Origin: Phycicoccus sp. M110.8
Lineage (GTDB): Bacteria; Actinomycetota; Actinomycetes; Actinomycetales; Dermatophilaceae
DNA length: 64,000 bases
Reading direction: 5' to 3'
NCBI RefSeq assembly: GCF_032464895.1
Contig: NZ_JAWDIC010000002.1
Location: 248,001-312,000, forward strand
Numbering within the stretch: the first letter of the stretch is position 1; every line of letters starts with the position of its first letter. Under the pieces are notes generated by a model. The model was not told the DNA's origin. It saw only the letters and a program-made list of their open reading frames with translations, and did not search any database. Of this stretch, positions 412-63,285 are shown piece after piece. Made by a program: the position numbers and the translations under genes.

Positions 412-1581
412 ATGGGTAGTCCGCTGGTCGCGCGCATGCAGGGGTTCGGCTCGACCATCTTCGCGGAGATGACCGCGCTGGCGACGGAGCGCGGTGCGGT
501 GAACCTCGGCCAGGGCTTCCCCGACACCGACGGTCCGCGCGCGATGCTCGACGCCGCCAAGGCCGCGATCGACGCCGGCCGCAACCAGTACCCGCCCGGC
601 CCCGGCGTGCCCGAGCTGCTGGAAGCCGTTGCGGCACACCAGAAACGCTTCTACGGCATGGACCTCGACCCGCGCCGCGAGGTGCTCGTCACCGTCGGCG
701 CGACCGAGGCGATCGCCGCGACGATCCTCGCCCTGTGCGAACCGGGCGACGAGGTCGTGACGTTCGAGCCCTACTACGACTCGTATGCCGCGTCGATCGC
801 CCTCGCGGGCGCGGTGCGGCGGACGTCGGTGCTGCGCTTTCCCGACTTCGCCGTCGACGAGGCGTCGCTGCGCGCGGCCTTCTCCTCGCGGACCCGGCTG
901 GTGCTGCTCAACACGCCGCACAACCCGACCGGCAAGGTGTTCAGCCGCGAGGAGCTCGAGCTCGTCTGTGCCCTCGCGCGCGAGCACGACGCGTGGGTCG
1001 TCACCGACGAGGTGTACGAGCACCTCGTGTTCGACGGGGTCGAGCACGTGCCGGTCGCGACGCTGCCGGGCATGTGGGACCGGACGCTGACCATCTCCTC
1101 GGCCGGCAAGACGTTCTCGGCGACCGGCTGGAAGGTGGGCTGGGTCAGCGGGCCGGCCGAGGCGGTGGCTGCGGTGCGGGCCGTGAAGCAGTTCCTCACG
1201 TTCGTCGGCTCGGGACCGTTCCAGCCGGCCGTCGCCGTGGCGCTGGGCCTCGGCGACGACGTGTATGCCGGGCTGGCCTCGTCGCTGCAGGCCAAGCGGG
1301 ACCTGCTCGTGGCCGGGCTGCGCGGGGCCGGGTTGGAGGTCTCGGTGCCGGCGGGGACGTACTTCGTCGTGGCCGACGCGGCGCCGCTGGGGGCGGTGGA
1401 CGCCCTGGAGTTCTGCCGCGAGCTGCCGGGCCGGGCGGGTGTCGTGGGCGTGCCGGTGTCGGTGTTCCACGACGACGTCGACGCCGCGCGGACCTTGGTG
1501 CGCTTCGCGTTCTGCAAGCGCGACGAGGTGCTGCAGGAGGCGGTGGGCCGCCTGGGCACCCTGAGGACCTCGGCCGGCTGA
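412..1581 (+). CDS. PLP-dependent aminotransferase, class I fold (DapC / methionine-aminotransferase-like)
   Basis: This 389-residue protein has the whole fold-type I aminotransferase pattern. The N-terminus carries NLGQGFPDTDGP, the middle NTPHNPTGKVFS and DEVYEHLVFDG, and the PLP-binding lysine lies in SSAGKTFSATGWKVGW at about residue 233. The C-terminal RFAFCK supplies the conserved arginine that binds the substrate carboxylate. Close relatives are annotated as N-succinyldiaminopimelate aminotransferase (lysine and peptidoglycan precursor synthesis), methionine aminotransferase or kynurenine aminotransferase; the sequence alone does not separate these. Length is normal. It is single, with no operon partner on the plus strand before the peptidase at 1712. 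Confidence 0.9.
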   Translation: MGSPLVARMQGFGSTIFAEMTALATERGAVNLGQGFPDTDGPRAMLDAAKAAIDAGRNQYPPGPGVPELLEAVAAHQKRFYGMDLDPRREVLVTVGATEAIAATILALCEPGDEVVTFEPYYDSYAASIALAGAVRRTSVLRFPDFAVDEASLRAAFSSRTRLVLLNTPHNPTGKVFSREELELVCALAREHDAWVVTDEVYEHLVFDGVEHVPVATLPGMWDRTLTISSAGKTFSATGWKVGWVSGPAEAVAAVRAVKQFLTFVGSGPFQPAVAVALGLGDDVYAGLASSLQAKRDLLVAGLRGAGLEVSVPAGTYFVVADAAPLGAVDALEFCRELPGRAGVVGVPVSVFHDDVDAARTLVRFAFCKRDEVLQEAVGRLGTLRTSAG

Positions 1582-1594
1582 CCGGTCCGGTTGC

Positions 1595-1660
1595 GTCCAC
1601 AGGGTCGTCCCTGCGGCGACGCCGTCCACAGGGTCGTCCCTGCGGCGACGCCGTCCACAG
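1595..1660. repeat. 29-bp perfect tandem repeat (2.3 copies)
   Basis: Two identical 29-bp units, 1595-1623 and 1624-1652, start GTCCACAGGGTCGTCCC and end GCGACGCC. A third copy begins at 1653 (GTCCACAG) and then diverges. The array lies immediately after the aminotransferase stop and before the M23 gene. Perfect identity suggests recent duplication or slippage. Confidence 0.85.
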
Positions 1661-1711
1661 CCTCGGGCGGCGGTCGTGGGACTGCCGGTCCCCACCCACC
1701 ACGCTGGCCGG

Positions 1712-2356
1712 ATGAACCTCGCGAGCAGCATCGTCCCGGTCGTGGCCTCGGCCCTCGTGGCCGGGGCGGCCGTGACCGGCGCCCGGTCCACGTCTGCACC
1801 GTCTCCGGTCGCAGGAGTGCAGGGTTCCGTTGTCGCACCCGGTGCGGTGGCGCCCGCCGCTGGGCCCGCCCCGGTGGAATCGTCCACCTCCACTGGAGCC
1901 GTCGGAGGTCCGCGTGCCGCCGCGGCTCCGCGTGGCCGGTGGCAGTGGCCGTTGACCCCACGACCTCCGGTCGCTCGTCCCTACCTCGCGCCCCGGTCGA
2001 CGTGGGGCGCCGGACACCGTGGTGTGGACCTGGCAGCGGCGAGAGGACAGCCGGTCCATGCCGTCGCGGCCGGAACGGTCACCCATGTCGGCGTCATCGC
2101 CGGCCGGCCGACCGTGACGGTGACCCATCCCGGCGGCCTGAGGTCGACCTACGAACCGGTGGACGCCGCAGTCCGACCGGGAGACGCGGTCCGCGCCGGA
2201 CAGGTCCTCGGGACGCTCGTGGTCGCCGGTTCGCACTGCTCCCCCACCGCGTGCCTCCACCTCGGCGCGCTGCGGGGACGCGAGTACCTCGACCCGATGA
2301 CGCTGCTCGGGCCCGTCCGGGTCAGGCTGCTGCCGCTCTGGCGCGCCGGGCCCTGA
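1712..2356 (+). CDS. Secreted M23-family (LytM-type) peptidase-like protein
   Basis: The 214-residue product has an N-terminal hydrophobic export segment (about residues 3-25, VVASALVAGAAVTG), a low-complexity Pro/Ala/Gly linker, and a C-terminal M23 domain. Visible landmarks are WGAGHRGVDLAA (zinc ligands His and Asp), the strand GTVTHVGVIAGRPTVTVTH and the terminal motif LHLGAL. M23 enzymes cut peptidoglycan cross-bridges. In the usual HxHxG motif the first His is catalytic; here the residue at that place is Cys (CLHLG), so activity may be reduced or the variant may be family-specific. The ATG at 1712 is chosen because the export segment follows it directly; an upstream GTG at 1676 would add residues before it. 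Confidence 0.85.
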   Translation: MNLASSIVPVVASALVAGAAVTGARSTSAPSPVAGVQGSVVAPGAVAPAAGPAPVESSTSTGAVGGPRAAAAPRGRWQWPLTPRPPVARPYLAPRSTWGAGHRGVDLAAARGQPVHAVAAGTVTHVGVIAGRPTVTVTHPGGLRSTYEPVDAAVRPGDAVRAGQVLGTLVVAGSHCSPTACLHLGALRGREYLDPMTLLGPVRVRLLPLWRAGP

Positions 2357-4304: not shown

Positions 4305-5486
4305 CTACTCGGGCGCGGTCGTCGGTGCCTTCCGCCACCCACCGCGCTGTCGCTGGCACAGCCCCTCGAGCTCCAGCACGCCGAGCGCCGCGAGCGCCTG
4401 CGCGGCACTGAGCCCGGCCCGCGCCGCGAGCGCGTCGACCCCGAGGGCGCCACGGTGCGGCAGCGCCTCGAGTGCCCGCCGGTGCACCGGGTCGAGCAGG
4501 TCGGCGGGGTCGACCGCACCGCGCTTCACCGGGGCCAGCTCACCGACCCGGCCCGCGAGCTCGACCACCTCGCCGACGTCGGTCACCAGCTCGGCACCGT
4601 CGCGGATCAGCACGTGGCAGCCGGCCGACGCCGCAGAGGTCACGGGTCCCGGCACGGCGCCGACGACCCGGCGCGCCTCCCGCGCGTGCCGGGCGGTGTT
4701 GCCCGACCCCGACCGCAGCCCTGCCTCCACGACCACCGTGCCGCGCGCGAGTGTCGCGATGAGCCGGTTGCGGCTCAGGAAGCGCCAGCGCGTGGGCGCG
4801 CTCCCCGGCGGCACCTCGCTCACCACAGCGCCGTCACGGGCGATGCGGTCGAGCAGGCCGGCGTGACCGGCCGGGTAGGCGCGGTCGATGCCACCCGCGA
4901 GCACCGCGACCGTGACCCCTCGCGCGACGAGCGCACCCTCGTGGGCCGCCGCATCGATGCCGTACGCCGCGCCGGACACCACGGCGAAGCCGCGCTCGGC
5001 CAGGCCCGCCCCGAGCTCGCGGGCCATGTGCAACCCGTAGCCGGTCGCGGCGCGGGCCCCCACCAGGGCGACACTGCGCTCGCCCACGGCCGGAAGGTCG
5101 GCCGGCCCGCGCACCCACAGGCACAGGGGCGGCCGGAGGTCCTCGACCCCCGTCGGCCACTCGTCGTCCCCCGGCACGACGACCCGCGCTGAGAGCGCCT
5201 CGAGGATCCTCGGCTCGCTGGACAGGTCGAGCTCGGCCAGCCGCGGGTGGAGCCGGCGGGCCAGCTCGCCCTCCGGGTCGAGGCCGTGCAAGGCGCCGAG
5301 GGCACCGCCGCCCGCCACGAGCTGGGCGACCACCGGGTCCTCCGGCTCGGACAGGCGCGCCCACGCGACCCGGGCCGTGCGCTCGTCGTCGACCTGTCGC
5401 AGGACGCGCTCGAGGTCCCGGCGCACCTCGGCGGGCGAGGAACCGGACCTCGACGCCCCGGCCTGCGTGGGGCGCTGCGCACTCAT
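4305..5486 (-). CDS. dprA: DNA-processing protein DprA (Smf)
   Basis: DprA binds incoming single-stranded DNA and loads RecA during transformation. The 393-residue protein has an N-terminal helical region, the Rossmann-like core ([75 protein letters not shown]), and a C-terminal winged-helix DprA_WH domain ([22 protein letters not shown]). The ATG at 5486 overlaps the comM stop by 4 bp, so the two are translationally coupled. Many actinobacteria keep dprA without proven competence, so a role in uptake here is open. Confidence 0.93.
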
Positions 5487-7027
5487 GCGGCCACCGCGCC
5501 CTGGCTGCGGAACGTCAGCGCCTGTCCGAGGTCGTCGCGCCCCGGCCGGGAACGGCCGGCCAGGTCGGCCATCGTCCAGCCGACGCGGAGCACCCGGTCG
5601 TACCCGCGCAGGGTGAGGGCGCCACGGTCCAGGGCGCGGTCGATGTCGACGGTCGCCGAGCTCGGGAGCCGCCACGGCGTCCGGCGCAGCCGTGCACCGG
5701 GGACGTGGCTGTTGAGCCGCCACGGTGTCGCCGCCCACCTCTCCGCCTGCGCCGCCCGCGCCCGGGCCACACGTTCGGCCACGGCGGCGCTCGGCTCTCC
5801 CCCGCCGGTCACCATCGAGGACCGGGTGACGGCCGGCACCTCGACCTGCAGGTCGACACGGTCGAGGAGCGGCCCCGACAGCCGGGCGAGGTAGCCGCGC
5901 TTGGCCTTCGGGGAGCAGGAGCAGCCGACGCCCTTGCCGAAGCCGAGCCCGCAGGGGCAGGGGTTGGCCGCCATCACGAGCTGGAAGCGCGCCGGGAACC
6001 GGACGGCGGACCGGGCCCTGGCCACGACGACGTGACCGGACTCCAGCGGCTGGCGCAGCGCCTGCAGCGCGCCGACCTTGAACTCGGGCGCCTCGTCGAG
6101 GAAGAGCACACCGTGGTGGGCCTGGCTGATCGCGCCGGGGCGCACCACGCCGCTGCCGCCGCCGATCACGGCCGCCTGCGTGGCGCTGTGGTGCGGCGCG
6201 ACGAACGGCGGCACCCCGGCCAGGTCCAGCTCGGCCGCCGTCACGCCCAGCAGCGAGCGCACGGCCAGGACGTCGATCGACTGCTCGCGCGTCAGCCTCG
6301 GCATGATCGTGACGAGCCGCTCGGCGAGCATCGTCTTGCCCGACCCGGGAGGTCCCAGCAGGAACAGGTGGTGACCGCCGGCCGCCGCCAGCTCGAGGGC
6401 GCGCCGCGGTTCCTCCTGCCCGACGACGTCGGCGAGGTCCGGCGGGGCCACGGGGCCGCCCGCCTCCTGCGCGGCCGGGACCGCCACACCCACCCGGAGC
6501 GGGTCGCCCGGCGAGCACGCGGCATACGCGGCGATGAGGTCGGCGAGGTGTCGTACCGCGTGGACGCGCACGTCGGGCACCAGGGCGGCCTCGGCGGCGT
6601 TCGCGACCGGCACGACGACGTCGGTGCAGCCCGCCCGCGCGGCGGCCAGCACCGCCGGCAGCACGCCCCGGACGGTCCGCACGGACCCGTCGAGGCCGAG
6701 CTCGCCCAGGTGGACCACGGGCCGCACCACCTCGGCGGGGACCAGGTCCAGCGCCGCCGCGACACTGACCGCGATGGGCAGGTCGAACCCGCTGCCGTTC
6801 TTGGGGATGGACGCCGGGGACAGGTTGACGGTGATGCGGTCCTGCTGCAGCGACCGCCCGATGCTCGCCGCGGCCGCCTTGACCCGGCTCGGCGCCTGCG
6901 AGCACGCGGTGTCGGGCAGCCCGCTCAGCAGGAACGCCGGCAGGCCGCCGGACAGGTGCGCCTCCACCTCGACCACGGCACCGGTCAGGCCCTCCAGCGT
7001 CACCGAGCGGGTGGACCCGAACGTCAC
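5483..7027 (-). CDS. comM: ComM/YifB family AAA+ ATPase (Mg-chelatase-like)
   Basis: The 514-residue protein belongs to the ComM branch of AAA+ ATPases, hexameric helicases that drive branch migration during natural transformation in gamma-proteobacteria. An N-terminal Lon-protease-like ChlI domain (NLSPASIPKNGSGFDLPIA) precedes the AAA+ module with Walker A GPPGSGKT, Walker B VLFLDEAPEF, and the C-terminal domain (LRGYDRVLRVGWTMADL). A zinc-like cluster CPCGLG...CSCSPK occurs after the sensor strand, as usual in this family. Start GTG at 7027 overlaps the yraN stop (GTGA), and homology begins at VTFGSTRSV; the frame is open upstream but that part is unlike the family. Confidence 0.92.
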   Translation of the reverse strand: MTFGSTRSVTLEGLTGAVVEVEAHLSGGLPAFLLSGLPDTACSQAPSRVKAAAASIGRSLQQDRITVNLSPASIPKNGSGFDLPIAVSVAAALDLVPAEVVRPVVHLGELGLDGSVRTVRGVLPAVLAAARAGCTDVVVPVANAAEAALVPDVRVHAVRHLADLIAAYAACSPGDPLRVGVAVPAAQEAGGPVAPPDLADVVGQEEPRRALELAAAGGHHLFLLGPPGSGKTMLAERLVTIMPRLTREQSIDVLAVRSLLGVTAAELDLAGVPPFVAPHHSATQAAVIGGGSGVVRPGAISQAHHGVLFLDEAPEFKVGALQALRQPLESGHVVVARARSAVRFPARFQLVMAANPCPCGLGFGKGVGCSCSPKAKRGYLARLSGPLLDRVDLQVEVPAVTRSSMVTGGGEPSAAVAERVARARAAQAERWAATPWRLNSHVPGARLRRTPWRLPSSATVDIDRALDRGALTLRGYDRVLRVGWTMADLAGRSRPGRDDLGQALTFRSQGAVAA

Positions 7028-7833: not shown

Positions 7834-8654
7834 CTCGCGATCATCTCCGCGCTCGTCTCGGGGGTCGCCCCTGCGGCCGTCCCCGCACCCGTCTCGTCGT
7901 CGTCCACCGGCAGTCCAGCCGGGGCCGCACCCTCATTCTCGCCCGCCACCCCGGGCAGTCGCCACGACCGCCGGTGCAGGTCGGTGGCGCCGTACGCCTC
8001 GAGCGCCGCGAGGTGCTCCGGCGCGGCATACCCCTTGTTCTCCTCCCACCCGTATGCCGGGTGCTCGGGGGCGGCGGCCACCATCAGGGCGTCGCGCTCC
8101 ACCTTGGCCAGCACGGAGGCGGCGGCCACGGAGGAGCACTTGAGGTCGGCCTTGATCATCGTGGTCACCGGCGGGGTGACCGGTCCCGACTCGTCGGCGA
8201 AGGCGAACAGCCCCACCTCGTCGGGCGCGGTGAGCCAGTCGTGGTTGCCGTCGAGGATGACGAGGTCCGGCACGGTGCCGACGGCCGCGAGGGCGCGCAT
8301 CCCGGCGAGCCGCAGCGCGGCGATGATCCCGATCTCGTCGATCTCGGCGGGTGAGGCGTGGCCGACCGCGAAGTCGAGGGCCCAGCGCCGGATCTTCGGG
8401 ACCATCGCGACCCGGGCGGCGGGCGTGAGCAGCTTGGAGTCCTTGACGCCGGTGGGGGCGCTGCGGGACGTCTCGTCGATGAGCACCACGCCCACCGTCA
8501 CCGGCCCGGCGAGGGCGCCGCGGCCGACCTCGTCCATCCCGGCCAGCACGCGGTGGCCGTCCCGCTGGAGCTGGCGCTCGACGCGCAGGCTGGGCTTGCG
8601 GCTGGTGGCGGCCTTGCGGGTCGCCGGCCGGCGTGTGGTGGCCACGTCAGCCAC
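7830..8654 (-). CDS. rnhB: Ribonuclease HII
   Basis: RNase HII removes ribonucleotides and RNA primers from DNA hybrids. The 274-residue protein shows the catalytic carboxylates in [14 protein letters not shown] (Asp-Glu) and in [10 protein letters not shown], and the conserved [20 protein letters not shown]. It carries a basic N-terminal extension ([15 protein letters not shown]) and an acidic, Gly/Ala-rich C-terminal tail (after WRLPGVAG) of about 40 residues, beyond the usual length of 200-230. It overlaps lepB by 8 bp and DUF2469 by 4 bp. Confidence 0.93.
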
Positions 8655-12810: not shown

Positions 12811-12886
12811 TCTAATCCCGTGATCAAGCGAGCGACCTCCTCGCGCCTGCCCGAGGCCGTCGGCGCACCCGGCATACGGTGACCCG

Positions 12887-17425: not shown

Positions 17426-18418
17426 TCAGCCTGAGGCGAGCTCCACCACCCGCGACAGCGTCCGTGGCCGAGGGAGGTAGGACCGCAGCGAGAGGTCGAC
17501 GTCGGCCTCCGCGAGCGCGAGCCCCTCGTCGCCCGTGCGAGGGTCGAGGGCCGCCCGTGCCTGCCGCTCGACGAAGTTCAGCTCGGTGCACAGGACGAGC
17601 GCGAGCTCATCGTGGCCCCTGACCTGCCCCGGCCCACCTGCGCTGCGGTATGCCGCGACCGTCGTCCGCACCGCCGCCTCGTCCACCAGGTCGCCGTCGA
17701 CGTGCCACTGCACGAGCACCTTGGCGAGCTCCCGGCCGGGGTCGACCGGGCCGGCGTCCTCCCAGTCGAGGGCGCGCAGCGACCCGTCTGGTGCCACCAG
17801 GACGTTGTCGGGGTGCAGGTCGCGGTGGCCCACCAGCCACGGGCCTGCGCTCGTGCCGGCCCGCGCGACCAGCGCCGCGAGAACCTCCAGGTCCTCGAGG
17901 CGGGACGCGAGCACCGGCCCCCACGGGCGGTCCGACGCGCGGGAGGCGAGCTCTGCGAACACCCCCACGTCGGGCGCCGTCGTCCACCACCTGCCCGGTG
18001 GCGAGGACGCAGGCGGCGCCGCGCGGTGCAGCGCGGCGAGCAGCGCCCCCACGGCGGCGGGCTCGGACGGCGCCGACGTGGCCCGCACGCCCTCGACCCA
18101 CCGGGCGACCCGGACGGTGCCCCCGCCGAGCGCGGTGGGCAGCCGCACGGCATACGCACCGGTCGTGGCCCGCAGGTGCACCGGCACCTCGACGCCCCGC
18201 GCCGCGAGGTGGTCGAGGAGGGCGGCCTCGGCGCGTACGTCGTCCTCGTCGACCGCCTCGTCCGGCTGCTTGAGGGCGTGTGCCGCGTCGCCGACCGCGA
18301 GCCGCGACACCAGGCCGCGGGCGCCGCGAGCCACCGGTTCGCGGTGCAGCGGCCCGGCGCCGAGCGCGTAGGCCTCGCGCACCCACTCCCCCAGCCGGTC
18401 CACCGCTGTCTCGCTCAC
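17426..18418 (-). CDS. APH-family phosphotransferase-like protein
   Basis: A 330-residue APH/choline-kinase-fold protein, unrelated in detail to the one at 13647. Landmarks are the catalytic loop [18 protein letters not shown] and the metal site [22 protein letters not shown]. The nucleotide-binding N-lobe is less clear, with [25 protein letters not shown] as the likely lysine-glutamate pair. Its start overlaps the stop of the zinc-ribbon SDR by 4 bp, so the two are translated together. Substrate unknown. Confidence 0.83.
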
Positions 18419-51666: not shown

Positions 51667-52242
51667 TCAGGCGACGCCCTCGGGGTGCCGCGGGCCGGCG
51701 AACCAGACCTTGGTCTCGCCGTAACGCCGCTCCCCCTCGGGCTCCCAGTCCGCGGGCCAGCGCGGCTCGGGCGAGCGGGACGAGCGCTCGACGACGACCA
51801 GGGCGTCGGGCGCGAGCCAGCCGTGCTCGGCGAGGAGGGCGAGGTCACCGGCCAGCGCCTCCTCGGGAAGGTCGTACGGCGGGTCGCTGAAGACCAGGGT
51901 GCAGGGGGTGGACGGCGGCGCCGCCAGCGTGCGGGCCACCGTGGCGTGGCGGACCGACGTGCCCGGTATGCCGAGTGCCGCCACATTGCGCCGTGCGACC
52001 GCCGCAGCGGCGCGGTCCGACTCGACGAGGAGCACCGACGCGGCCCCACGGCTGGCCGCCTCGAGGCCGAGGGCACCGGACCCGGCATACAGGTCGAGCA
52101 CGTGGGCTCCACGCAGGACGTCGAGGTGCTCGAGGCGGGAGAACAGCGCCTCGCGCACCCGGTCGCTCGTGGGGCGGGTGCCCTGGCCCGGCGGGGTGGC
52201 GATCCGCTGGCCGCCGGCCCGGCCGCTGATGATGCGCGTCAC
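51667..52242 (-). CDS. rsmD: 16S rRNA (guanine966-N2)-methyltransferase RsmD
   Basis: The 191-residue protein has the RsmD start VTRIISGRAGGQRIATPPGQGTRPTSDRVREALFSRL, the SAM-binding VLDLYAGSGALGLEAASRGA, and the catalytic FSDPPYDLP (DPPY). The start is GTG at 52242; the frame is open upstream but that sequence is unlike the family. It belongs to the recG-rsmD-coaD neighbourhood; here an alpha/beta hydrolase lies between it and recG. Confidence 0.94.
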   Translation of the reverse strand: MTRIISGRAGGQRIATPPGQGTRPTSDRVREALFSRLEHLDVLRGAHVLDLYAGSGALGLEAASRGAASVLLVESDRAAAAVARRNVAALGIPGTSVRHATVARTLAAPPSTPCTLVFSDPPYDLPEEALAGDLALLAEHGWLAPDALVVVERSSRSPEPRWPADWEPEGERRYGETKVWFAGPRHPEGVA

Positions 52243-52327: not shown

Positions 52328-53104
52328 TCAGGACGTGCGCACCTCGCTCTGGCGCTCGAGGGCCTCGAGGAGCATGGCCGCGACCTCGTCCGGGCGCTCG
52401 AGCGAGGGCAGGTGGCCGGCCCAGGGCAGCTCGACGTGCTCGGCACCGGGCACCTGCGTGGCCAGGACGGTGGCGACCTCGCCGAAGTGGGCGAGGTCCA
52501 GCGCCCCCGAGACGACGAGGGTGGGGGCAGCCAGTCGTGACGGGTCGACCTCCACCCGCTCCGGCTGCGGGCCCGGCTCGAGCGCGTCGGCGGCGAGCTG
52601 CACCGCGAAGGACCTGCGCTGCATCTGCGCCACGCGGTCCGCGGTCGCCTCGTCGGCGTCCGGCCCGAGGAAGGTGCGGACGTTGAGCTGCACCGCCCCC
52701 TCGACGTCACCGGCCTCGAGCAGCCGGTCCTCCTCGGCGCCGAAGGCCTGCAGCTCCTCGTCGGGGTCCACGCCGCGGTATGCCGGGCAGAGCAGGACGA
52801 GGGAGGACACGCGGCCGGGGTGCCGGGTGGCGAGCTCCATGGCGACCCGGCCGCCGTAGGACGACCCCACGACCGCAGCCTCGGCGACGCCGAGCGAGTC
52901 GAGCAGCGCGGCGAGGTCGTCGGCGTCGGCATACACCTCACCCGGCAGGGGGCTGTCCCCGAAGCCGCGCAGGTCGGGCCGCACCACCCGGTGGGCGCGG
53001 GTCAGCGCGGGCAGGAGTGGCTGCCACATCCGGCGGTCGCAGACCCCGGAGTGCAGCAGGAGGACGGCCGGGCCGTCACCGTCGACGTCATGGGCGAGGA
53101 TCAC
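52328..53104 (-). CDS. Alpha/beta-fold hydrolase
   Basis: A 258-residue alpha/beta hydrolase with VLLLHSGVCDRRMWQPLLPAL (oxyanion loop), DLRGFGDSPLP, nucleophile elbow AAVVGSSYGGRVAMEL (Ser), and catalytic His in PWAGHLPSLERPDEV. The GTG start at 53104 begins VILAHDVDGDGPAVLLLHSG, the usual N-terminus. Substrate unknown. It is separated from recG by a 187-bp repeat-bearing gap. Confidence 0.88.
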   Translation of the reverse strand: MILAHDVDGDGPAVLLLHSGVCDRRMWQPLLPALTRAHRVVRPDLRGFGDSPLPGEVYADADDLAALLDSLGVAEAAVVGSSYGGRVAMELATRHPGRVSSLVLLCPAYRGVDPDEELQAFGAEEDRLLEAGDVEGAVQLNVRTFLGPDADEATADRVAQMQRRSFAVQLAADALEPGPQPERVEVDPSRLAAPTLVVSGALDLAHFGEVATVLATQVPGAEHVELPWAGHLPSLERPDEVAAMLLEALERQSEVRTS

Positions 53105-53291: not shown

Positions 53292-55466
53292 TCAGCCGCG
53301 CTCGAGGAAGGCGGCCTGCTGCTCGTCCACCTGCTCGGCGACGGCGGCCGCGAGGTCGGGGTGGGCGGCCAGCTCGGGGTCCGCGGCGACGAGCGCGGTG
53401 GCGTCCTCGCGGGCCTGGTCGACCAGCGCCTCGTCGCGCAGGATCGACAGCCACTCCAGCGAGTTGCGCCCGCCGGACTGCCGGGCACCGAGCACGTCGC
53501 CCTCGCGCCGCTGCTCGAGGTCGAGCCGGGCGAGCTCGAACCCGTCGGTCGTCCCGGCCACCGCCTGCAGGCGGACGAGGGCCGACTCGGCGTCGGTGCT
53601 CGTGAACAGCAGGCACAGGCCGGCGTGCTGCCCGCGGCCCACGCGTCCGCGCAGCTGGTGCAGCTGGGAGACCCCGAACCGGTCGGCGTCCATGACCACC
53701 ATGACCGTGGCGTTGGGCACGTCGACGCCGACCTCGATCACCGTGGTCGAGACGAGCAGGTCGACCTCGCCGCGGTTGAACCGCGCCATCACGGCGTCCT
53801 TGGCCTCCGGCGGCATCCGCCCGTGCAGGACCTCGATGGTGAGGCCGGCGAGCGCCGGTGTCTCGCGCAGGGTGGCCTCCACGGCATACACGCTCGCGAG
53901 CTCGCGCGGGGCCTCGACGGGGTTGCCCTCCTCGTCGACCTCCTGCGGCAGGAAGGGCTCGTCCTCGACGCCCTTGTCGTCGCCGCCGATCCGCGGGCAG
54001 ACGACGTAGGCCTGCCGGCCGGCCCGCACCTCTTCGGCGATGCGCTCCCAGGTGCGCTCGACCCAGCGGGCGTTGTCGCCGGGCACGACGTGCGTCGCGA
54101 TCGGCGAACGGCCGCGCGGGAGCTCGCTCAGGGTCGAGGTCTCGAGGTCGCCGAACACGGTCATGGCGACGGTGCGCGGGATCGGCGTCGCGGTCATCAC
54201 GAGGACATGGGGCGGCTGGTTCCCCTTCTCCCGCAAGGCATCTCGCTGCTCGACCCCGAATCGGTGCTGCTCGTCGACGACGACGAGGGCGAGGTCGAAG
54301 AAGGACACGTTCTGCTGGATGAGCGCGTGCGTGCCGACGACGATCCCGGCGTCGCCGGAGGCCGCGTCGAGCAGTGCCTGCTTGCGCGCAGCGGTCGACT
54401 GCGAGCCGGTCAGCAGCGTGACGCGGGTGCCGATGTCGCTGCCGCCGAGCATCCCTCCCTCGGCGAGGTCGCCGAGCATCGCCGTGATCGACCGGTGGTG
54501 CTGGGCGGCCAAGACCTCGGTCGGGGCGAGCAGGGCCGCCTGCCCGCCCGCGTCGACGGCGGCCAGCATCGCCCGCAGCGCGATGACGGTCTTGCCGGAG
54601 CCGACCTCGCCCAAGAGCAGCCGGTGCATCGGGGTGTCGCGCGCCATCTCCTCGGCGAGCACCTCCCCCACCTCGCGCTGGCCGGCGGTGAGCTCGAACG
54701 GCAGCCGCGCGTCGAACGCCGCGAGCAGCCCGCCCTCGCGCGGGCGCCGGGCCAGCGTCTTCTCCTGCGCCTGCCGGTGCCGCCGTTGGGCCAGCACGGT
54801 CTGCAGGACCAGCGCCTCCTCGTACCGCAGCCGCTTGCGCGCCCGCTCCACCTCCGGCCAGCCGCTGGGCTGGTGGATGCCGCGCAGCGCCTCCAGCCGC
54901 GACGGCAGCCCGCGCGCGGCGGCGAGGTCGGCCGGGACGACGTCGACGACCGAGTCGAGCTGGTCGAAGACGAGGTTGAGGCTGTCGATGACGGTCCAGT
55001 TCTGGACCTTGGGCACCTGCAGGTAGATCGGCAGCAGCCGTCGGCGCGCGTCGAGGCCGTCGGAGTCCGGCGGCAGGATCTGGTAGTCGGGGTGGGTGAG
55101 CTGCCAGGTCCGGCCGTAGCGGCCCACCTTGCCGGCGAAGATCGCTCGCGCGCCCGGGACGAGGCGGCCCTCGTGCCCGTACGGCTTGAAGAAGGTCACC
55201 TCCATGTCGTTGGTGCCGTCGGTGATCGTGGCGGTGAGGATGCGGCCCCGGCGGTTGCGCATCGGGCGCGTGACGGCGTCGCGGACGTCGGCCACCACGA
55301 CGACGTACTCGCCCTCGTGCAGGCTCGTCAGGTCGGCGTCGAAGCTGGTGTAGCGCCGCGGCCAGAACCGCAGCAGGTCGCCCACGGTGTGCAGGTCGCG
55401 GCCGGCGGCCAGCTTGGGGGCCGCGCTCGAGACGACCGAGCGCAGGTTCGTGCTCTCGTCGACCAC
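53292..55466 (-). CDS. recG: ATP-dependent DNA helicase RecG
   Basis: RecG regresses stalled replication forks and processes branched DNA. The 724-residue protein has an N-terminal wedge/OB domain (VGDLLRFWPRRYTSF; FAGKVGRYGRTWQLTHPDYQIL), the helicase domain with LLGEVGSGKTVIALRAML (Walker A), VVDEQHRFGVEQRDAL (DExx), and the second helicase lobe VATHVVPG...RGRVGRGQHAGLCLLF (motif VI), and ends with the RecG wedge tail. The start is GTG at 55466. It follows the fakA-like gene by 2 bp. Confidence 0.96.
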   Translation of the reverse strand: MVDESTNLRSVVSSAAPKLAAGRDLHTVGDLLRFWPRRYTSFDADLTSLHEGEYVVVVADVRDAVTRPMRNRRGRILTATITDGTNDMEVTFFKPYGHEGRLVPGARAIFAGKVGRYGRTWQLTHPDYQILPPDSDGLDARRRLLPIYLQVPKVQNWTVIDSLNLVFDQLDSVVDVVPADLAAARGLPSRLEALRGIHQPSGWPEVERARKRLRYEEALVLQTVLAQRRHRQAQEKTLARRPREGGLLAAFDARLPFELTAGQREVGEVLAEEMARDTPMHRLLLGEVGSGKTVIALRAMLAAVDAGGQAALLAPTEVLAAQHHRSITAMLGDLAEGGMLGGSDIGTRVTLLTGSQSTAARKQALLDAASGDAGIVVGTHALIQQNVSFFDLALVVVDEQHRFGVEQRDALREKGNQPPHVLVMTATPIPRTVAMTVFGDLETSTLSELPRGRSPIATHVVPGDNARWVERTWERIAEEVRAGRQAYVVCPRIGGDDKGVEDEPFLPQEVDEEGNPVEAPRELASVYAVEATLRETPALAGLTIEVLHGRMPPEAKDAVMARFNRGEVDLLVSTTVIEVGVDVPNATVMVVMDADRFGVSQLHQLRGRVGRGQHAGLCLLFTSTDAESALVRLQAVAGTTDGFELARLDLEQRREGDVLGARQSGGRNSLEWLSILRDEALVDQAREDATALVAADPELAAHPDLAAAVAEQVDEQQAAFLERG

Positions 55467-55468
55467 GC

Positions 55469-57163
55469 CTACTCGACTCCCAGCAGCAGCGGGTAGTGGG
55501 GCTGACCGCCCTCGATCACCTGGACGTCGAGGTCCCGCTGGGCCTGGCGCACCCGCTGGCCCACGGCCTCACCCAGGCCCTCCGGGGCGCCCTCCCCCGT
55601 CACCACCGTGACGATCTCGCCGCCGCTGGACAGCAGCCGCGTGAGCACCTCGACCCCCACCGCCTCGAGGTCGTCGCCCACCACGACGACGTCGCCCGAC
55701 ACCGCCCCCAGGACGTCGCCCGGGGCGCACGGGCCGGCACTGGTGAGCGCCTCCTTGCTGGCGACGGCGACCGCGCCGTGCCGGGTCGCCGCGGCCGCGT
55801 GGCCCATCTCCGAGGCGTTGCGGGCGGCGCTCGCCGTGGCCTCCCAGACCGCCATCGCGGCCAGCCCCTGCACCGCCGTGCGCGAGCGGACGACGTGGAC
55901 CTCCACACCGTCGGCCTCCGCCGCCCGGGCGGCCGCGTGCGCCGCCATCTCGGTGTCGCGGTCGTTGGGGAGCATCAGGACCGACGGGGCGCCGGTGGCG
56001 CGCACCGCGTCGAGCAGCTGGCCCGCCGAGGCGCGCCGGCCGGGGCCGCTGGCCACCACCACGGCGCCGGCCGCCTCGAACACGGTGGCCAGGCCCGGCC
56101 CGGCCGCACACGCGACGACGGCGACGCCCGTGACGTGGCGCTCCCGGCGCGCCGCCTGGTCGGCGAAGTGCGTGACCCGCACCCGGAACGGCCGGCCCGC
56201 GTCGATCCCCGCCTCGAGCGCGGCCCCGACGTCGTCGACGTGGACGTGGACGTTCCACAGCTCGGGACCACCGACGACGAGCAGCGAGTCGCCGAGGGCG
56301 TCGAGGGTCGTGCGCAGCGTGGCCGCGCGGCCCTCGTCGCTGTCGCGCAGCAGGTACATCACCTCGTATGCCGGTCCGCCCTCGACGAGGTCGCCGTCAC
56401 CGGTGGACGACCCGCCGTGCGAGCCCACCGGCTCGACCACCCCGCCGTTGCTGCGGGTCCAGTCCTCCCGTCGGCGCAGGGTCTGGTCCTCGGTGAACGG
56501 CTCGACCCGCTCGCCGACCTGGGTGGCGTCCTGGTGCACGACCCGGGCGAGGGCCTCGAGCATGAGCACGTACCCCGCGGCCCCGGCGTCCACGACCCCG
56601 GCACGGGCGAGGGCCGGGAGCTGCTCGGTCGTCTTGCGGAGCGCGACGGTGGCGGCGTCGAGGGCGGCCTCGGCGACCGCCGCGAGGCCGTCGTCCACCG
56701 GCTCGGCTCCCGCCAGGGCCGCCGCGTGCGCGACGGTGAGGATCGTCCCCTCGGCGGGGTGCATGACGCTGGCGCGGGCCCGGTCGCTGGCCCGGGCGAG
56801 GCCGTCGGCCATCACGGACGCGTCGGCTGTCTCGACGCCCCGCTCGGCGATCGCCTCGGCGAACCCGCGCACGAGCTGGCTGAGGATGACGCCGGAGTTG
56901 CCCCGCGCGGTGAGCAGCATCGCGTGCGCGAGGTCGCCGCACTCCTGCTCGAGCGAGGCCTCGCCGAGGATGCCGGCCCGCTCGTGCTCGGTGCGGACGG
57001 CGTCGAGCGCGGCGTCCAGGGTGAGGTAGAGGTTGGTACCCGTGTCGCCGTCGGGGACGGGGAAGACGTTGAGCGCGTCGATCTCGGCACGCCGGGCGGC
57101 GAAGGCGGCCCGGGTGAGCACAGCCCACCGCCGGGCATCGGCGGCGGTGAGGGCATCGAGCAC
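55469..57163 (-). CDS. DAK2-domain protein, fatty-acid-kinase (FakA)-like
   Basis: A 564-residue protein. The N-terminal DhaL/DAK2 domain has ALNVFPVPDGDTGTNLYLTLDAA (Asp residues binding Mg-ATP), MLLTARGNSGVILSQLVRGF and VVDAGAAGYVLMLEAL; the C-terminal part is the FakA-type domain. FakA phosphorylates fatty acids delivered by FakB; this one is fakA-like by domain order, and no fakB is adjacent. The GTG start is at 57163. It is followed by recG, the common actinobacterial pair, and is divergent from rpmB. Confidence 0.88.
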   Translation of the reverse strand: MLDALTAADARRWAVLTRAAFAARRAEIDALNVFPVPDGDTGTNLYLTLDAALDAVRTEHERAGILGEASLEQECGDLAHAMLLTARGNSGVILSQLVRGFAEAIAERGVETADASVMADGLARASDRARASVMHPAEGTILTVAHAAALAGAEPVDDGLAAVAEAALDAATVALRKTTEQLPALARAGVVDAGAAGYVLMLEALARVVHQDATQVGERVEPFTEDQTLRRREDWTRSNGGVVEPVGSHGGSSTGDGDLVEGGPAYEVMYLLRDSDEGRAATLRTTLDALGDSLLVVGGPELWNVHVHVDDVGAALEAGIDAGRPFRVRVTHFADQAARRERHVTGVAVVACAAGPGLATVFEAAGAVVVASGPGRRASAGQLLDAVRATGAPSVLMLPNDRDTEMAAHAAARAAEADGVEVHVVRSRTAVQGLAAMAVWEATASAARNASEMGHAAAATRHGAVAVASKEALTSAGPCAPGDVLGAVSGDVVVVGDDLEAVGVEVLTRLLSSGGEIVTVVTGEGAPEGLGEAVGQRVRQAQRDLDVQVIEGGQPHYPLLLGVE

Positions 57164-57728: not shown

Positions 57729-58763
57729 TCAGCCGGCGAAGTGGTCCCAGCCGCGGGGCTGCTGGGGCTCACCGTCGAGGGTGACGCCCTCGCCCTCCTC
57801 GACCCGGCCCAGCGCCCGCCACCCCGGCGGCAGCTCACCGCCGAACGTCGCGAGCAGGCTGTGCTCCTCCCCACCGGCGAGCACGCACTCGAGCGCCCCG
57901 TCGCCGACCACCTCGCGCAGCACGTCCACGTCGGGCGCCAAAAGCGCCGAGTCGAGGGCCACCCGCACCCCGCTGGCCGCTGCCAGCCGGGACCCGTCAC
58001 GCAGCAGCCCGTCCGACACGTCGAGCATCGCCGTCGCCCCGCTCGCCGCAGCCCGGGGGCCGGCCGCCAGCGGCGTCGTCGGCCGCAGGTGGTGCGCGAC
58101 GCACTCGGCAGCGGTGCCGCTCCACCCCTCTGCCTCGCGAGTGGCGTGGCCCCGGCCCCCGGCGCCGGCCTCGCCCCGGGCAGCGTCGCCCCGAACAGCC
58201 TCGTCCCTGACAGCCCCGGCCCGGAGCAGCTCCAGGCCTGCTGCCGAGCGCCCCAGCGTGCCGCAGACGGCGACCACGTCACCGGGGCGGGCGCCCGAGC
58301 GCAGGACGGGGCGGCCCGGCAGGTCCCCCAGCGCCGTTACGGCGACCGCGAGGACCCCCGCGGGCGCGGACGACAGGTCGCCACCTGCCACGGCGACCCC
58401 CGCCTCCGCGGCCCGGGCGCCCAGCTCCCGGGCGAAGTCGAGCACCCAGTCCACCTCCACGGCCGGGTCCGCCATGAGTGCGACGAGCACGGCCGTCGGC
58501 CGGCCGCCCATCGCGGCGACGTCGGCGAGGTTCTGGGTGAGCGCCTTGGCCGCGACGTCGGCCCCGCTGGACCACTCGTCCACCCAGTCGCGCCCACGGA
58601 CCATCGTGTCGGTCGTGGCGACCGTCCGGCTCCCCGTGGCGAGGACGGCCGCGTCGTCCCCCGGGCCCACCGGCATACCCGGCCCGCCGGTGAAGAACGG
58701 GAAGATCTCGGCCAGCAGGGCACCCTCGGACACCTGCGCGAGCGTGCGCGCCTGGTCGGGCAC
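57729..58763 (-). CDS. thiL: Thiamine-monophosphate kinase
   Basis: ThiL makes thiamine pyrophosphate from thiamine phosphate. The 344-residue protein shows GPGDDAAVLATGSRTVATTDTMVRGRDWVDEWSSGADVAAKALTQNLADVAAMGGRPTAVLVAL and AGGDLSSAPAGVLAVAVTALG, with Asp clusters for Mg-ATP, and LDVSDGLLRDGSRLAAASGV. Between ELLRAGAV and ECVAHHLRP is an insert of about 30 residues rich in Gly, Ala, Glu and Arg (RGDAARGEAGAGGRGHATRE). The start is GTG at 58763 with ribosome site GAGGAGG. Confidence 0.95.
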   Translation of the reverse strand: MPDQARTLAQVSEGALLAEIFPFFTGGPGMPVGPGDDAAVLATGSRTVATTDTMVRGRDWVDEWSSGADVAAKALTQNLADVAAMGGRPTAVLVALMADPAVEVDWVLDFARELGARAAEAGVAVAGGDLSSAPAGVLAVAVTALGDLPGRPVLRSGARPGDVVAVCGTLGRSAAGLELLRAGAVRDEAVRGDAARGEAGAGGRGHATREAEGWSGTAAECVAHHLRPTTPLAAGPRAAASGATAMLDVSDGLLRDGSRLAAASGVRVALDSALLAPDVDVLREVVGDGALECVLAGGEEHSLLATFGGELPPGWRALGRVEEGEGVTLDGEPQQPRGWDHFAG

Positions 58764-59140: not shown

Positions 59141-59614
59141 GTGCGCCGCGCCGCGCGTCGGCGCGCGCTCCTCGCAGCCGCCGGCCTCCTGATCCTCGGG
59201 ACGGCCGGCGCTGTCGTGTATGCCGTGTGGCCGCGCGGCGTCGACGTGGCCGTCCCCGGCTATGCCGGCACCGGCTGCGACGCCGCCTCCGGGGCGTGGC
59301 CGAAGCGCGTGGCCGGGCGCGACCGCGTGGACACCTCCCCGGCGTCCGCCCGGACCCGCGCGTGGGGCGACCCTGCCGTCGTCGCCCGGTGCGGCCTGCC
59401 CGCGCTCGGCCCGACGACCGACGAGTGCCTCGACGTCGACGGCGTGGGCTGGGTGGTCGAGCGGCTGTCCGACGGCGCCCGCTTCACGACGTTCGGCACG
59501 GACCCTGCGATCGAGGTCCTGGTCCCCAGCGCCTACGCCCCCGAACCGCTCCTCCTGCCTGCGTTCGGCCCCGCCGCGAAGGCCCTGCCCCAGAACGGCC
59601 GCCACTGCTCCTGA
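59141..59614 (+). CDS. DUF3515 domain protein
   Basis: A 157-residue protein with one N-terminal membrane segment (ALLAAAGLLILGTAGAVVYAV) after a basic start (RRAARRR), then an outside domain with four Cys (GYAGTGCDAA, VARCGLPAL, DECLDVDG and NGRHCS). The DUF3515 family is actinobacterial and lies beside ddl; I know of no function. GTG start at 59141, co-transcribed with the AsnC domain. An inverted repeat follows at 59642. Confidence 0.88.
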   Translation: MRRAARRRALLAAAGLLILGTAGAVVYAVWPRGVDVAVPGYAGTGCDAASGAWPKRVAGRDRVDTSPASARTRAWGDPAVVARCGLPALGPTTDECLDVDGVGWVVERLSDGARFTTFGTDPAIEVLVPSAYAPEPLLLPAFGPAAKALPQNGRHCS

Positions 59615-60935: not shown

Positions 60936-62060
60936 GTGACCTCCCACGACCTGCCCGACGTGCCCAAGCCCGCAGCGGACGTCGCCGCCCACGACGACCT
61001 GTCCCCGGCCTCGCGCGTGGTGGCGCTCGGGCGCCCGGCTCGCGTCCCGGGTGCCGGCGTGAGCCCTCCGCTGGAGCTCTCCTCGACGTATGCCGCGGGC
61101 GGCCCGCAGGGGTACGCCCGGGGCGGCAACCCCACGTGGTCGGCGTTCGAGGAGGCCCTCGGCAGCCTCGAGGGCGGCGATGCGCTGGTCTTCGCATCCG
61201 GCATGGCCGCGGTGAGTGCCGCCCTGTCCCTCGCGCCCCACGGCAGCCCCGTCGTCGCCTCGAAGACCGCGTACAACGGCACCGTGGCCTCGCTGCTCGA
61301 CGCCGAGCGCGACGGTAGCCACGAGGTGCGCTGGGTCGACCTCACCGACACGGCCGCCGTGGTGGCCGCGCTCGACGGCGCGGCCATGGTCTGGCTGGAG
61401 TCGCCGAGCAACCCGCTCCTGGAGGTGGCCGACCTGCCCGCCATCGCAGCCGCCGCCCGCGAGCGCGGCGTGCTGTCCGTGTGCGACAACACGTTCGCCA
61501 CTCCCCTGGGCCAGCAACCGCTGTCCTTCGGCGTCGACGTCGTAGTGCACTCGGTGACCAAGTACCTCAGCGGCCACAGCGACCTCATCCTCGGCGCCAC
61601 CGTCACCGCCTCCACCGAGGCCGGCACCGCCCTGCACGACCGCCTCGCGCACCACCGCCTCCTCGGCGGCGGCATCGCCGGGCCGATGGAGACGTGGCTC
61701 GCCCTGCGGGGGCTGCGCACCCTGCACGTGCGGCTCGAGCGCGCCACCGCGAATGCCGCGGCGCTGGCCGAGCGGCTCCACGGCCACCCGTCCGTGGAGC
61801 GGGTCCGCTACCCCGGCTTCGGGGCGATGGTGTCCCTCGAGGTCGTGGGTGGACCCGAGGCCGCCGAGCGCGTCGCCGACGCCGTGCACCTGTGGAGCCA
61901 CTCGACCAGCCTCGGCGGCGTGGAGTCCCAGGTCGAGCGTCGTCGGCGGCACGTCCTGGAGCCCGAGACCACCCCGGAGAACCTGCTGCGCCTGTCGGTC
62001 GGCATCGAGGACGTCGAGGACCTCTGGCGCGACCTCGACCAGGCCCTCCGCCACGCCTGA
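60936..62060 (+). CDS. Cys/Met-metabolism PLP-dependent enzyme (cystathionine gamma-lyase/synthase-like)
   Basis: A 374-residue fold-type I PLP enzyme of the gamma family: PPLELSSTYAAGGPQGYARGGNPTWSAFEEALGSLEGG, ALVFASGMAAVSAALSL, VWLESPSNPLLEVADL, CDNTFATPLGQQPLSFGVDVVVHSVTKYLSGHSDLILGA (PLP Lys in SVTKYLSGH). The C-terminal domain SHSTSLGGVESQVERRRRH is present. Exact reaction (cystathionine lyase, synthase, methionine lyase) is not decided. The GTG at 60936 starts TSHDLPDVPKPAADV. Divergent from ddl. Confidence 0.9.
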   Translation: MTSHDLPDVPKPAADVAAHDDLSPASRVVALGRPARVPGAGVSPPLELSSTYAAGGPQGYARGGNPTWSAFEEALGSLEGGDALVFASGMAAVSAALSLAPHGSPVVASKTAYNGTVASLLDAERDGSHEVRWVDLTDTAAVVAALDGAAMVWLESPSNPLLEVADLPAIAAAARERGVLSVCDNTFATPLGQQPLSFGVDVVVHSVTKYLSGHSDLILGATVTASTEAGTALHDRLAHHRLLGGGIAGPMETWLALRGLRTLHVRLERATANAAALAERLHGHPSVERVRYPGFGAMVSLEVVGGPEAAERVADAVHLWSHSTSLGGVESQVERRRRHVLEPETTPENLLRLSVGIEDVEDLWRDLDQALRHA

Positions 62061-62142
62061 CCCCTGAGCCAGCATGACCCTGGGCCGCATCCGAGCCGGG
62101 GTGGCGGGCAGCCCCGCGGAGCCGCCATCCCCACCACGTCAT

Positions 62143-62275
62143 GCCACCTGACCGCGGTCAAGCGCTGCACATGCGCGGCCACGTGGCCCGAAGTGGGGTG
62201 CATCTCCCACTTGAGGCCACCTGACCGCGGTCAGGCGCTCTGCCTGCGGGGCCCGGTGGCCCGAAGTGCGGGAGG
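62143..62275. repeat. Two-copy direct repeat with TGACCGCGGTCA palindromes
   Basis: Copy 1 from 62143 and copy 2 from 62216 start GCCACCTGACCGCGGTCA, each followed by (A/G)GCGCT and later by GGCCCGAAGTG. The repeat period is 73 bp. Inside each is the perfect 12-bp palindrome TGACCGCGGTCA. They lie between convergent genes (the PLP enzyme and gpsA). They could be terminators or a binding array. Confidence 0.75.
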
Positions 62276-62286
62276 AGGAGCTCGGG

Positions 62287-63285
62287 TCAGTCGGTCTCGT
62301 TCTTGAGCTCGCGCTGCATGAGCGCGCCGACGACGTCCTTGGGCGAGCGCCCGTCGTGGACCACCGCCGCCACCTGCTCGATGATCGGCACCCGGACGTC
62401 GTGCTGGTGCGCGAGCTGCAGGATCGACTCGCAGGACTTCACGCCCTCGGCCGTCTGCTTGGTCACCGCGACGACCTCGGCGACCGACATGCCCTTGCCG
62501 AGGTTGACCCCGAACGTGTGGTTGCGCGACAGCGGTGACATGCAGGTGGCGATGAGGTCGCCCACCCCGGCGAGGCCCGCGAACGTCATGACGTCGGCCC
62601 CCAGGGCCAGCCCTAGCCGGGTCGTCTCGGCCAGGCCGCGGGTGATGATCGAGGCCTTGGAGTTGTCCCCCATGCCGAGGCCCTCGGCCATGCCGACCGC
62701 GAGCGCGATGACGTTCTTGACGGCGCCGCTGATCTCGGTGCCGACGACGTCGGTGTTCGTGTACGGGCGGAAGTAGGGCGGGTTGGAGGCCCGCGCCACC
62801 ATGTCGGCGACCGACTCGTCGATGCAGGCGACGACGCTGGCGGCAGGCTGCTTCTTGGCGATCTCGGGAGCGAGGTTGGGGCCCGAGACGACGACGATGC
62901 GGTCCTGCGGGACGCCGCCGGCCTCGTGGATCACCTCGCTCATCCGCTTGGTCGTGCCGAGCTCGACACCCTTCATCAGCGACACGACGGCCTTGGCGTC
63001 CCCGAGGAGGTGCCCCCAGGTCGCGAGGTTGGTCCGCAGCGTCTGGGACGGCACGGCCAGGACGACGATGTCGGCGCCCCGGACGGCCTCCTCGGGGTCC
63101 GTGGTCGCGGTCACCGTGGGCGGCAGGACGAGGTCCGGGAGGTAGTCGCGGTTGCAGCCGGCGTTGACCTGGTCGACGGCCTCCTGCCGGCGCCCCCACA
63201 TCCGCACGGGGGTGCCCCCGTCGGCGAGCACGGCGGCATACGCGGTCCCCCAGCTGCCCGTGCCGAAGACCGCGGCGGTGCTCAT
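62287..63285 (-). CDS. gpsA: Glycerol-3-phosphate dehydrogenase [NAD(P)+]
   Basis: GpsA makes glycerol-3-phosphate for phospholipids. The 332-residue protein has the Rossmann start AAVFGTGSWGTAYAAVLADGGTPVRMWGRR (GxGxxG), VSLMKGVELGTTKRMSEVI, VVSGPNLAPEIAKKQPA, EISGAVKNVIALAVGMAEGLGMGDNSKASIITRGLAE (catalytic Lys) and TFAGLAGVGDLIATCMSPLSRNHTFG. ATG 63285 overlaps the plsC stop. Confidence 0.96.
   Translation of the reverse strand: MSTAAVFGTGSWGTAYAAVLADGGTPVRMWGRRQEAVDQVNAGCNRDYLPDLVLPPTVTATTDPEEAVRGADIVVLAVPSQTLRTNLATWGHLLGDAKAVVSLMKGVELGTTKRMSEVIHEAGGVPQDRIVVVSGPNLAPEIAKKQPAASVVACIDESVADMVARASNPPYFRPYTNTDVVGTEISGAVKNVIALAVGMAEGLGMGDNSKASIITRGLAETTRLGLALGADVMTFAGLAGVGDLIATCMSPLSRNHTFGVNLGKGMSVAEVVAVTKQTAEGVKSCESILQLAHQHDVRVPIIEQVAAVVHDGRSPKDVVGALMQRELKNETD

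Follow-up and report, generated by a model that had tools for sequence, protein, structure and literature searches.

An octamer over-represented throughout the genome of Phycicoccus sp. M110.8 as a candidate uptake word in Dermatophilaceae

A 64-kb stretch of the Phycicoccus sp. M110.8 genome (contig NZ_JAWDIC010000002.1, positions 248,001 to 312,000; hereafter the window) is densely populated by the 7-base word GTATGCC, which is nearly always extended by one base to the octamer GTATGCCG. This octamer is a real, strongly selected, family-restricted word with most of the sequence-level hallmarks of a DNA uptake sequence. By analogy with known uptake words, we regard it as a candidate signal for DNA uptake in Dermatophilaceae, the family to which we take its word-bearing relatives to belong, with a probability of roughly 0.65.

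Exact string counting found 45 copies of GTATGCC in the window (22 plus-strand, 23 minus-strand), the first at 783 and the last at 63235–63241. This agrees with the original prediction, which had counted about 45 copies by eye with the same strand split, and the excess is larger than it had stated, as 100 dinucleotide shuffles of the window gave a mean of 1.46 copies and a maximum of 4. The observation that most copies have a further G is borne out by 43 of the 45; the remaining two (26890 and 49665) have A as the next base. No octamer in the window is more over-represented than GTATGCCG, for which a second-order Markov model expects 1.0 copies. A maximal-order Markov model expects 44.1 copies of GTATGCC, close to the observed count, since TATGCC and GTATGC, the two hexamers within it, are nearly confined to GTATGCC; at this order the test is therefore uninformative and was set aside. 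According to our own gene caller, 39 window copies are coding and six are intergenic, the latter comprising those previously placed in gaps (20501, 25300 and 40151) as well as 12871, 29767 and 46069. The copies are as follows, by the coordinates of the 7-base GTATGCC, with (G) denoting a G as the next base:

783..789, plus strand, GTATGCC(G)
1263..1269, plus strand, GTATGCC(G)
6521..6527, minus strand, GTATGCC(G), within the comM-like gene
8025..8031, minus strand, GTATGCC(G), coding, in an inverted close pair with the copy at 8052
8052..8058, plus strand, GTATGCC(G), coding, in an inverted close pair with the copy at 8025
12871..12877, minus strand, GTATGCC(G), intergenic
14761..14767, plus strand, GTATGCC(G)
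17648..17654, plus strand, GTATGCC(G)
18149..18155, minus strand, GTATGCC(G)
20501..20507, minus strand, GTATGCC(G), intergenic
21408..21414, plus strand, GTATGCC(G)
22941..22947, plus strand, GTATGCC(G)
23358..23364, minus strand, GTATGCC(G)
23811..23817, minus strand, GTATGCC(G)
25300..25306, plus strand, GTATGCC(G), intergenic
25471..25477, minus strand, GTATGCC(G)
26890..26896, plus strand, GTATGCC then A
28314..28320, plus strand, GTATGCC(G)
29133..29139, minus strand, GTATGCC(G)
29767..29773, plus strand, GTATGCC(G), intergenic
31415..31421, plus strand, GTATGCC(G)
31639..31645, minus strand, GTATGCC(G)
31708..31714, minus strand, GTATGCC(G)
34220..34226, plus strand, GTATGCC(G)
35039..35045, plus strand, GTATGCC(G)
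35483..35489, minus strand, GTATGCC(G)
39126..39132, minus strand, GTATGCC(G)
40151..40157, minus strand, GTATGCC(G), intergenic
41201..41207, plus strand, GTATGCC(G)
42656..42662, minus strand, GTATGCC(G)
44202..44208, minus strand, GTATGCC(G)
46069..46075, plus strand, GTATGCC(G), intergenic
49029..49035, minus strand, GTATGCC(G)
49362..49368, minus strand, GTATGCC(G)
49665..49671, plus strand, GTATGCC then A
51966..51972, plus strand, GTATGCC(G)
52084..52090, minus strand, GTATGCC(G)
52778..52784, plus strand, GTATGCC(G)
52928..52934, minus strand, GTATGCC(G)
53883..53889, minus strand, GTATGCC(G)
56366..56372, plus strand, GTATGCC(G)
58672..58678, minus strand, GTATGCC(G)
59218..59224, plus strand, GTATGCC(G)
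61088..61094, plus strand, GTATGCC(G)
63235..63241, minus strand, GTATGCC(G)

The excess extends to the whole 4.12-Mb genome, in which GTATGCC occurs 1305 times forward and 1289 times in reverse, against 153 and 140 for the reversed word used as a control. GTATGCCG itself has 2,476 copies (1234 and 1242 by strand) compared with 135 for its reversed form. A 484-kb sample of the genome, consisting of the window and 21 further stretches, contains 272 copies, where 8.4 are expected from a second-order and 13.6 from a third-order Markov model. As in uptake sequences, this is a short, non-palindromic word found about once per kb and far above expectation.

The core of the word is strict. Among its one-base variants in the 484-kb sample, GTATGCCA is raised (11 vs. 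3.2 expected) and GGATGCCG mildly so (80 vs. 48.4), GCATGCCG (37 vs. 64.0) and GTCTGCCG (26 vs. 49.7) fall below expectation, and all others are near expectation or in single figures. Downstream there is a weaker flank, also typical of uptake sequences. Position +9 is G in 71%, 79%, and 80% of copies in the two main coding frames and the gaps, respectively, against 36%, 51%, and 49% in controls; in the gaps, A is avoided at +8 (3% vs. 21% in the control) and G is favoured at +11 (70% vs. 32%). Within the window, +12 also looked enriched, but not when compared with phase-matched controls. As a separate observation, GCATGCC is depleted in the window, with 4 copies on both strands where 19 are expected, perhaps through avoidance of the palindrome GCATGC.

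Selection targets the DNA word and not codons or peptides, as the original prediction had proposed. It had described the coding copies as written TAT-GCC or GCA-TAC, and this holds for 35 of the 39 in the window (23 and 12, respectively). The larger sample has 230 coding copies (0.54 per kb) and 42 intergenic ones (0.69 per kb), the coding copies reading Tyr-Ala (127), Ala-Tyr (80), or other frames (23). The dipeptides themselves are hardly in excess (Tyr-Ala 1.12-fold and Ala-Tyr 1.06-fold over expectation), and codon context of Tyr-Ala does not explain the count. Of 166 TAT codons sampled, 127 lie inside the word and 39 outside it; in a congener assembled as one contig (G003; G, L, and f numbers are our labels for genomes, loci, and families), the share inside is 99 of 247. 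The intergenic copies and the conservation at orthologous sites described below point the same way.

The word is conserved between relatives beyond its surroundings, which had been put forward as a check. The comEC region was aligned between 11 genomes of the genus, namely M110.8 and ten more, which are about 79% identical there. Of 1026 pairwise word sites, 610 (59%) match exactly, whereas other octamers reach 22% and permuted octamers 27%; the pairwise counts, here and for the word-rich and word-poor loci below, are non-independent. Between M110.8 and six strong congeners, 10/12, 8/10, 9/10, 7/12, 11/12, and 11/12 words are kept, against 19–24% of other octamers, and four congeners of lower density keep 3/12, 4/12, 4/11, and 6/10. 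Across 18 word-rich loci of the family (1743 site comparisons), 48% of sites are exact and 8% have one mismatch; the controls give 18% and 26%. Between word-rich loci and 10 word-poor loci, only 3 of 800 sites are exact (control 15%), and the commonest replacement in the latter is GTACGCCG. In two of the lower-density congeners, G006 and G007 (loci L120 and L121), former words often appear as GTATGGCG, GTAGGCCG, or GTATGCAG and not as GTACGCCG, which may represent drift or a shifted specificity. Of the window copies that could be aligned, some are kept in Pedococcus bigeumensis (5/7), Phycicoccus sp. Soil802 (5/7), Soil748 (1/6), a metagenome-assembled genome (MAG; 4/7), and Humibacillus (2/5), and other octamers in these alignments are kept at 14–24%.

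The distribution of the word is patchy within the family and ends at its border, which answers the suggestion to look for it in related genera. We counted GTATGCCG in 58 genomes, 11 from the genus, 25 from elsewhere in the family, and 22 from outside it. All 11 genus genomes hold 625–3,986 copies. Among the other 25 family members, 12 hold more than 900, three (G026, G029, and G030) hold 196–293, and ten hold 11–95, and the 22 outside the family hold 2–167. The maximum, 4,724 copies in 4.2 Mb, was found in another genus. A scan of 297 genomes across the order found at least 625 copies in 14 of the 24 family members included and at most 71 in the other 10, while none of the 273 genomes outside the family exceeds 177. 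Judged by ComM, the closest named relatives are two strains of Phycicoccus and P. bigeumensis, the latter at 81% identity. Fourteen named genomes divide into five with 625–3,097 copies (P. bigeumensis 2,551; Soil802 2,241; Humibacillus xanthopallidus 2,908; a Micrococcales MAG 3,097; Soil748 625) and nine with 6–111. In a tree of 40 genomes built from ComEC and LeuRS (five genomes lacked LeuRS, and the tree was read without support values), rich and poor genomes are sisters at G013/G033, G014/G034, G021 with G016 and G024, and G027/G011. From this topology, we read the word as an old feature that has probably been lost repeatedly, although gain on several occasions is possible as well. No other comparably sharp enriched word was seen in the ten word-poor family members, in a small sample of one 20-kb stretch each.

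Both orientations are used equally. GTATGCC is found 122 times forward and 125 times in reverse over 20 evenly spaced stretches of G003, each 20 kb long; 130 of these copies run along the majority gene strand and 117 against it, in keeping with the genome-wide balance in M110.8 and with what is seen in uptake sequences. The gaps between copies are near exponential in length (coefficient of variation 0.92).

Close pairs, defined as neighbouring copies at most 60 bp apart from start to start, were collected from 884 kb of two genomes with 506 copies. There are 20 such pairs, 19 in opposite and one in the same orientation; random placement gives 14.6 pairs, 7.3 of them opposite, and it is therefore the orientation that stands out and not the closeness. 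Ten of the 20 have the form GTATGCCG...CGGCATAC (3.6 at random, with 11 as the largest value in 2,000 trials). Nine of these ten are intergenic, and all nine lie 6–32 nt past a stop codon as called by our gene caller. Six of the nine were folded, giving –30.8 to –58.3 kcal/mol with z-scores of –3.2 to –8.3 and no equally stable shuffle. Inverted pairs at terminators are a further trait of uptake sequences, matched here by position, and the hairpins are putative terminators of transcription.

The genome also encodes competence machinery, another expected companion of an uptake word. Outside the window, M110.8 has comEC, comEA (with helix-hairpin-helix and SLBB domains), a tad-1-like cluster that includes one putative minor pilin with no Pfam match, and a second tad cluster with an Flp pilin. 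The window itself contributes two context genes:

4305..5486, minus strand, dprA (Pfam DNA_processg_A, E 3.5e-66; DprA_WH, E 1.4e-9)
5483..7024, minus strand, comM-like gene (Pfam Mg_chelatase, E 7.2e-83)

The original prediction had cited dprA and comM in support of uptake; their presence is upheld by these Pfam matches, but as evidence for uptake they prove nothing alone. A third tad-like locus in M110.8 (L173:8421-10186) looks incomplete, with a TadZ-like gene recognised by eye and a T2SSE match. In the word-rich genome G004, the ComEC match is split over two different open frames (G004:C1:1517076-1517881), reflecting a recent break or a sequencing error.

The closest parallels are with Gram-negative uptake words. 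The likeness in density that had been noted earlier is apt; the neisserial dialects named in PMC3630211 have 2,245–5,918 copies, beside the 2,476 found here. As described in that source, neisserial DNA uptake sequences resemble GTATGCCG in being short and asymmetric, present in thousands of copies, family-restricted with absences, located in genes and gaps, and arranged as inverted pairs at terminators. The neisserial 12-mer ATGCCGTCTGAA (PMC5031613) has ATGCCG in common with GTATGCCG, which may well be coincidence. In contrast to the neisserial case, the host here is Gram-positive, the genus lacks PilM, and the neisserial CTG core (PMC3630211) is missing from GTATGCCG. The Pasteurellacean uptake signal sequence is likewise similar in density, sharpness, and symmetry. 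Its sequence, AAGTGCGGT (PMC5031613), is unrelated, and it serves Gram-negative uptake. Nearer in descent, Micrococcus luteus undergoes Flp/Tad-dependent transformation and shares with M110.8 ComEA, ComEC, two tad clusters, and the phylum (PMC4322843). The term “uptake sequence” appears in neither of the two M. luteus papers searched, PMC4322843 being one of them. The cyanobacterial HIP1 GCGATCGC is also an octamer over-represented genome-wide; unlike the non-palindromic GTATGCCG, it is a palindrome, tied to methyltransferases in the account of PMC4390886.

If GTATGCCG is an uptake sequence, the signal would consist of the octamer and its weaker downstream flank (a base other than A, followed by G, any base, and G). 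An Flp/Tad pilus, or a receptor associated with it, could bind double-stranded DNA at the surface of a competent cell with a preference for GTATGCCG; one strand would then pass inward via ComEA and ComEC, and DprA and ComM would help to recombine it. Word-bearing fragments would enter more often, and recombination would spread and maintain the word in either orientation wherever the protein sequence allows, with inverted pairs coming to lie in terminator-like hairpins downstream of genes. The word would disappear from any lineage in which the specificity was lost. It is inferred that the uptake machinery reads the word, that these bacteria undergo transformation at all, and that the receptor is of this kind.

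A second word in the order differs by one base from GTATGCC. GGATGCC reaches 116 copies vs. 15.3 expected in Salinibacterium loci, and 13 of 14 named genomes hold 1,943–3,806 copies. Counts against the reversed word are 2,834/247 in Salinibacterium amurskyense, 3,346/290 in Microbacterium sp. CH12i, and 823/339 in Clavibacter, which is the exception among the 14; these genera belong to Microbacteriaceae. In the order-wide scan, 18 of 22 genomes of family f19 exceed 1,000 copies per strand, three have 774–1,054, and G103 has 435/377; f19 is probably Microbacteriaceae, because it bears the same word. Some large or f6 genomes also exceed 1,000 per strand, at about 2–5 times their own control. The peak is 5,725 copies in G129, and downstream flanks are genome-specific. 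The excess is visible, for example, at L101, L175–L184, and L186 in f19 and at the named loci L022, L026, L031, L037, and L064. GGATGCC is looser than GTATGCCG (in G055, GGATGTC 64 vs. 13 and GGATGAC 44 vs. 17 expected) and less conserved (39%, against a control level of 19%), and its close pairs form no hairpins after genes; it was therefore dropped as a full equivalent of GTATGCCG and is kept as a lead for a dialect. In the word-poor G011 (L083), GGATGCC is raised (895/882 vs. 254/274 for the reversed word; congener G283 has 506/407), and a switch of word is possible.

Taken more broadly, GTATGCCG in Dermatophilaceae and a GGATGCC dialect in Microbacteriaceae, with ATGCC in common, could reflect sequence-tagged uptake in Gram-positive bacteria that evolved independently of the Neisseriaceae and Pasteurellaceae cases, serves to recognise kin DNA, employs an Flp/Tad-associated receptor, is old in the family, and was repeatedly lost; this wider proposal is tentative, and we put it at somewhat less than even odds.

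Several points weigh against uptake as the role of GTATGCCG. The families named with sequence-specific uptake in the text of PMC5031613 available to us are Pasteurellaceae and Neisseriaceae, both Gram-negative, and the prior for a Gram-positive case is therefore low. Among the matches listed in open-access PubMed Central, no transformation reports were found for these genera and, by titles and abstract starts, no uptake word in actinobacteria; the word strings are present there solely in papers on unrelated subjects, as judged by title. The machinery does not separate rich from poor genomes. ComEC occurs in 57 of 58 relatives, word-poor ones included, and ComEA in all 40 loci (the G006 match ends before the helix-hairpin-helix part). 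The comparison of tad-1 covered 16 family loci, from 9 rich genomes, 3 intermediate ones, and 4 of the 10 poor ones, and its seven genes are present in every one of them and in one outgroup; the loci were picked among the matches listed in a way that favours genomes with a visible tad-1, and four stretches from poor genomes, L211–L214, were excluded because they hold a different tad locus. PilM (PilM_2), a protein of type IV pili, is missing from all 11 genus genomes, and a canonical type IV pilus was rejected on this ground. No receptor was found, and no convincing rich-only gene emerged near comEC or in tad-1, the com loci and tad-1 being the regions compared, with no genome-wide search. A gene beside comEA was considered for this role and rejected: it occurs in 14/18 rich, 4/4 intermediate, and 1/10 poor loci by our gene caller, which overlooked ComEC in 3 of 10 poor loci known to have it, and this lipid-enzyme-like gene, which we take to be PlsY-like, may reflect mere synteny. 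This lack of association between word and machinery fits a lost specificity factor and equally a reader outside the uptake machinery.

Density in shared and less shared DNA, a point of likeness to uptake sequences, gives a mixed picture. At one 20-kb com-region locus in the 11 genus genomes, bases aligned in 5–10 other genomes carry 106 words in 144.6 kb (0.73 per kb), compared with 0.28 per kb in less shared DNA overall. Within the latter, bases aligned in 1–4 others carry 11 words in 53.1 kb (0.21 per kb) and bases aligned in none carry 10 in 21.2 kb (0.47 per kb), so that the unshared class is denser than the partly shared one and there is no smooth gradient. No Phage_portal match was found in the 11 genus genomes, and hence there was no prophage to compare. 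The copy-poorest stretches have low GC content (5 copies at 0.66 in G003 and 6 at 0.67 in M110.8), and over all stretches copy number correlates with GC only weakly (rho 0.42 and 0.38; p 0.07 and 0.10; n = 20 for each genome). Finally, much of this pattern would also be expected if some other protein read the word.

Such a protein is the main rival to uptake. The word could be bound by a protein that organises or segregates the chromosome or acts in recombination, that depends on dispersed sites, and that has nothing to do with uptake; we consider this unlikely, albeit the strongest of the alternatives. Its near-uniform spread (copies in 5-kb bins are slightly more even than Poisson, with variance 2.09 and mean 2.81), sharp consensus, strong site conservation, and independence from the uptake genes would all suit this role. 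Patchy loss among sister genera is odd for a housekeeping chromosome function, however, and the absence of a strand or regional pattern in the 20 stretches of G003 and the lower density of less shared DNA at the one locus compared also count against it.

It is improbable that GTATGCCG is linked to restriction, methylation, or defence as a protected mark of self. Type I/III and BREX methylation systems typically recognise asymmetric words of 7–8 bases, but such words are expected to be avoided or neutral, against the 32-fold excess here, and the spread over a family and the site conservation exceed the usual turnover of these systems. Less probable still is a signal of the Chi or FtsK-orienting polar sequence (KOPS) type, read by a recombination nuclease or FtsK. 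Clade-specific, over-represented short words of that kind are known, but strand symmetry, which the original prediction had invoked for the window, extends to G003, with neither an orientation bias nor strong skew along replichores, and largely refutes this reading. RecC, a subunit of RecBCD, was not found in M110.8 and is rare in the genus (1/11, compared with 2/12 other rich, 2/3 in-between, and 5/10 poor family genomes). This patchiness of RecC covers G001, G016, G019–G021, G023, G029, G030, G034, and G035. Codon context, dipeptide use, or mutation bias has practically no chance of being the source, since the 207 of 230 coding copies that read Tyr-Ala or Ala-Tyr are outweighed by the gap copies and both orientations, which refute it, together with the near-normal dipeptide use, the higher density in gaps, the scarcity of TAT outside the word, and the conservation at orthologous sites.

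Should GTATGCCG be an uptake sequence in a Gram-positive family, kin-selective transformation would have evolved again with a different pilus, and a large group of actinobacteria from soil would undergo natural transformation now or have done so recently. Such strains may then become transformable with DNA to which the word has been added. Should the reader be a different protein, an exact octamer kept by selection at thousands of sites across part of one family would still be a strong genome feature that calls for explanation.

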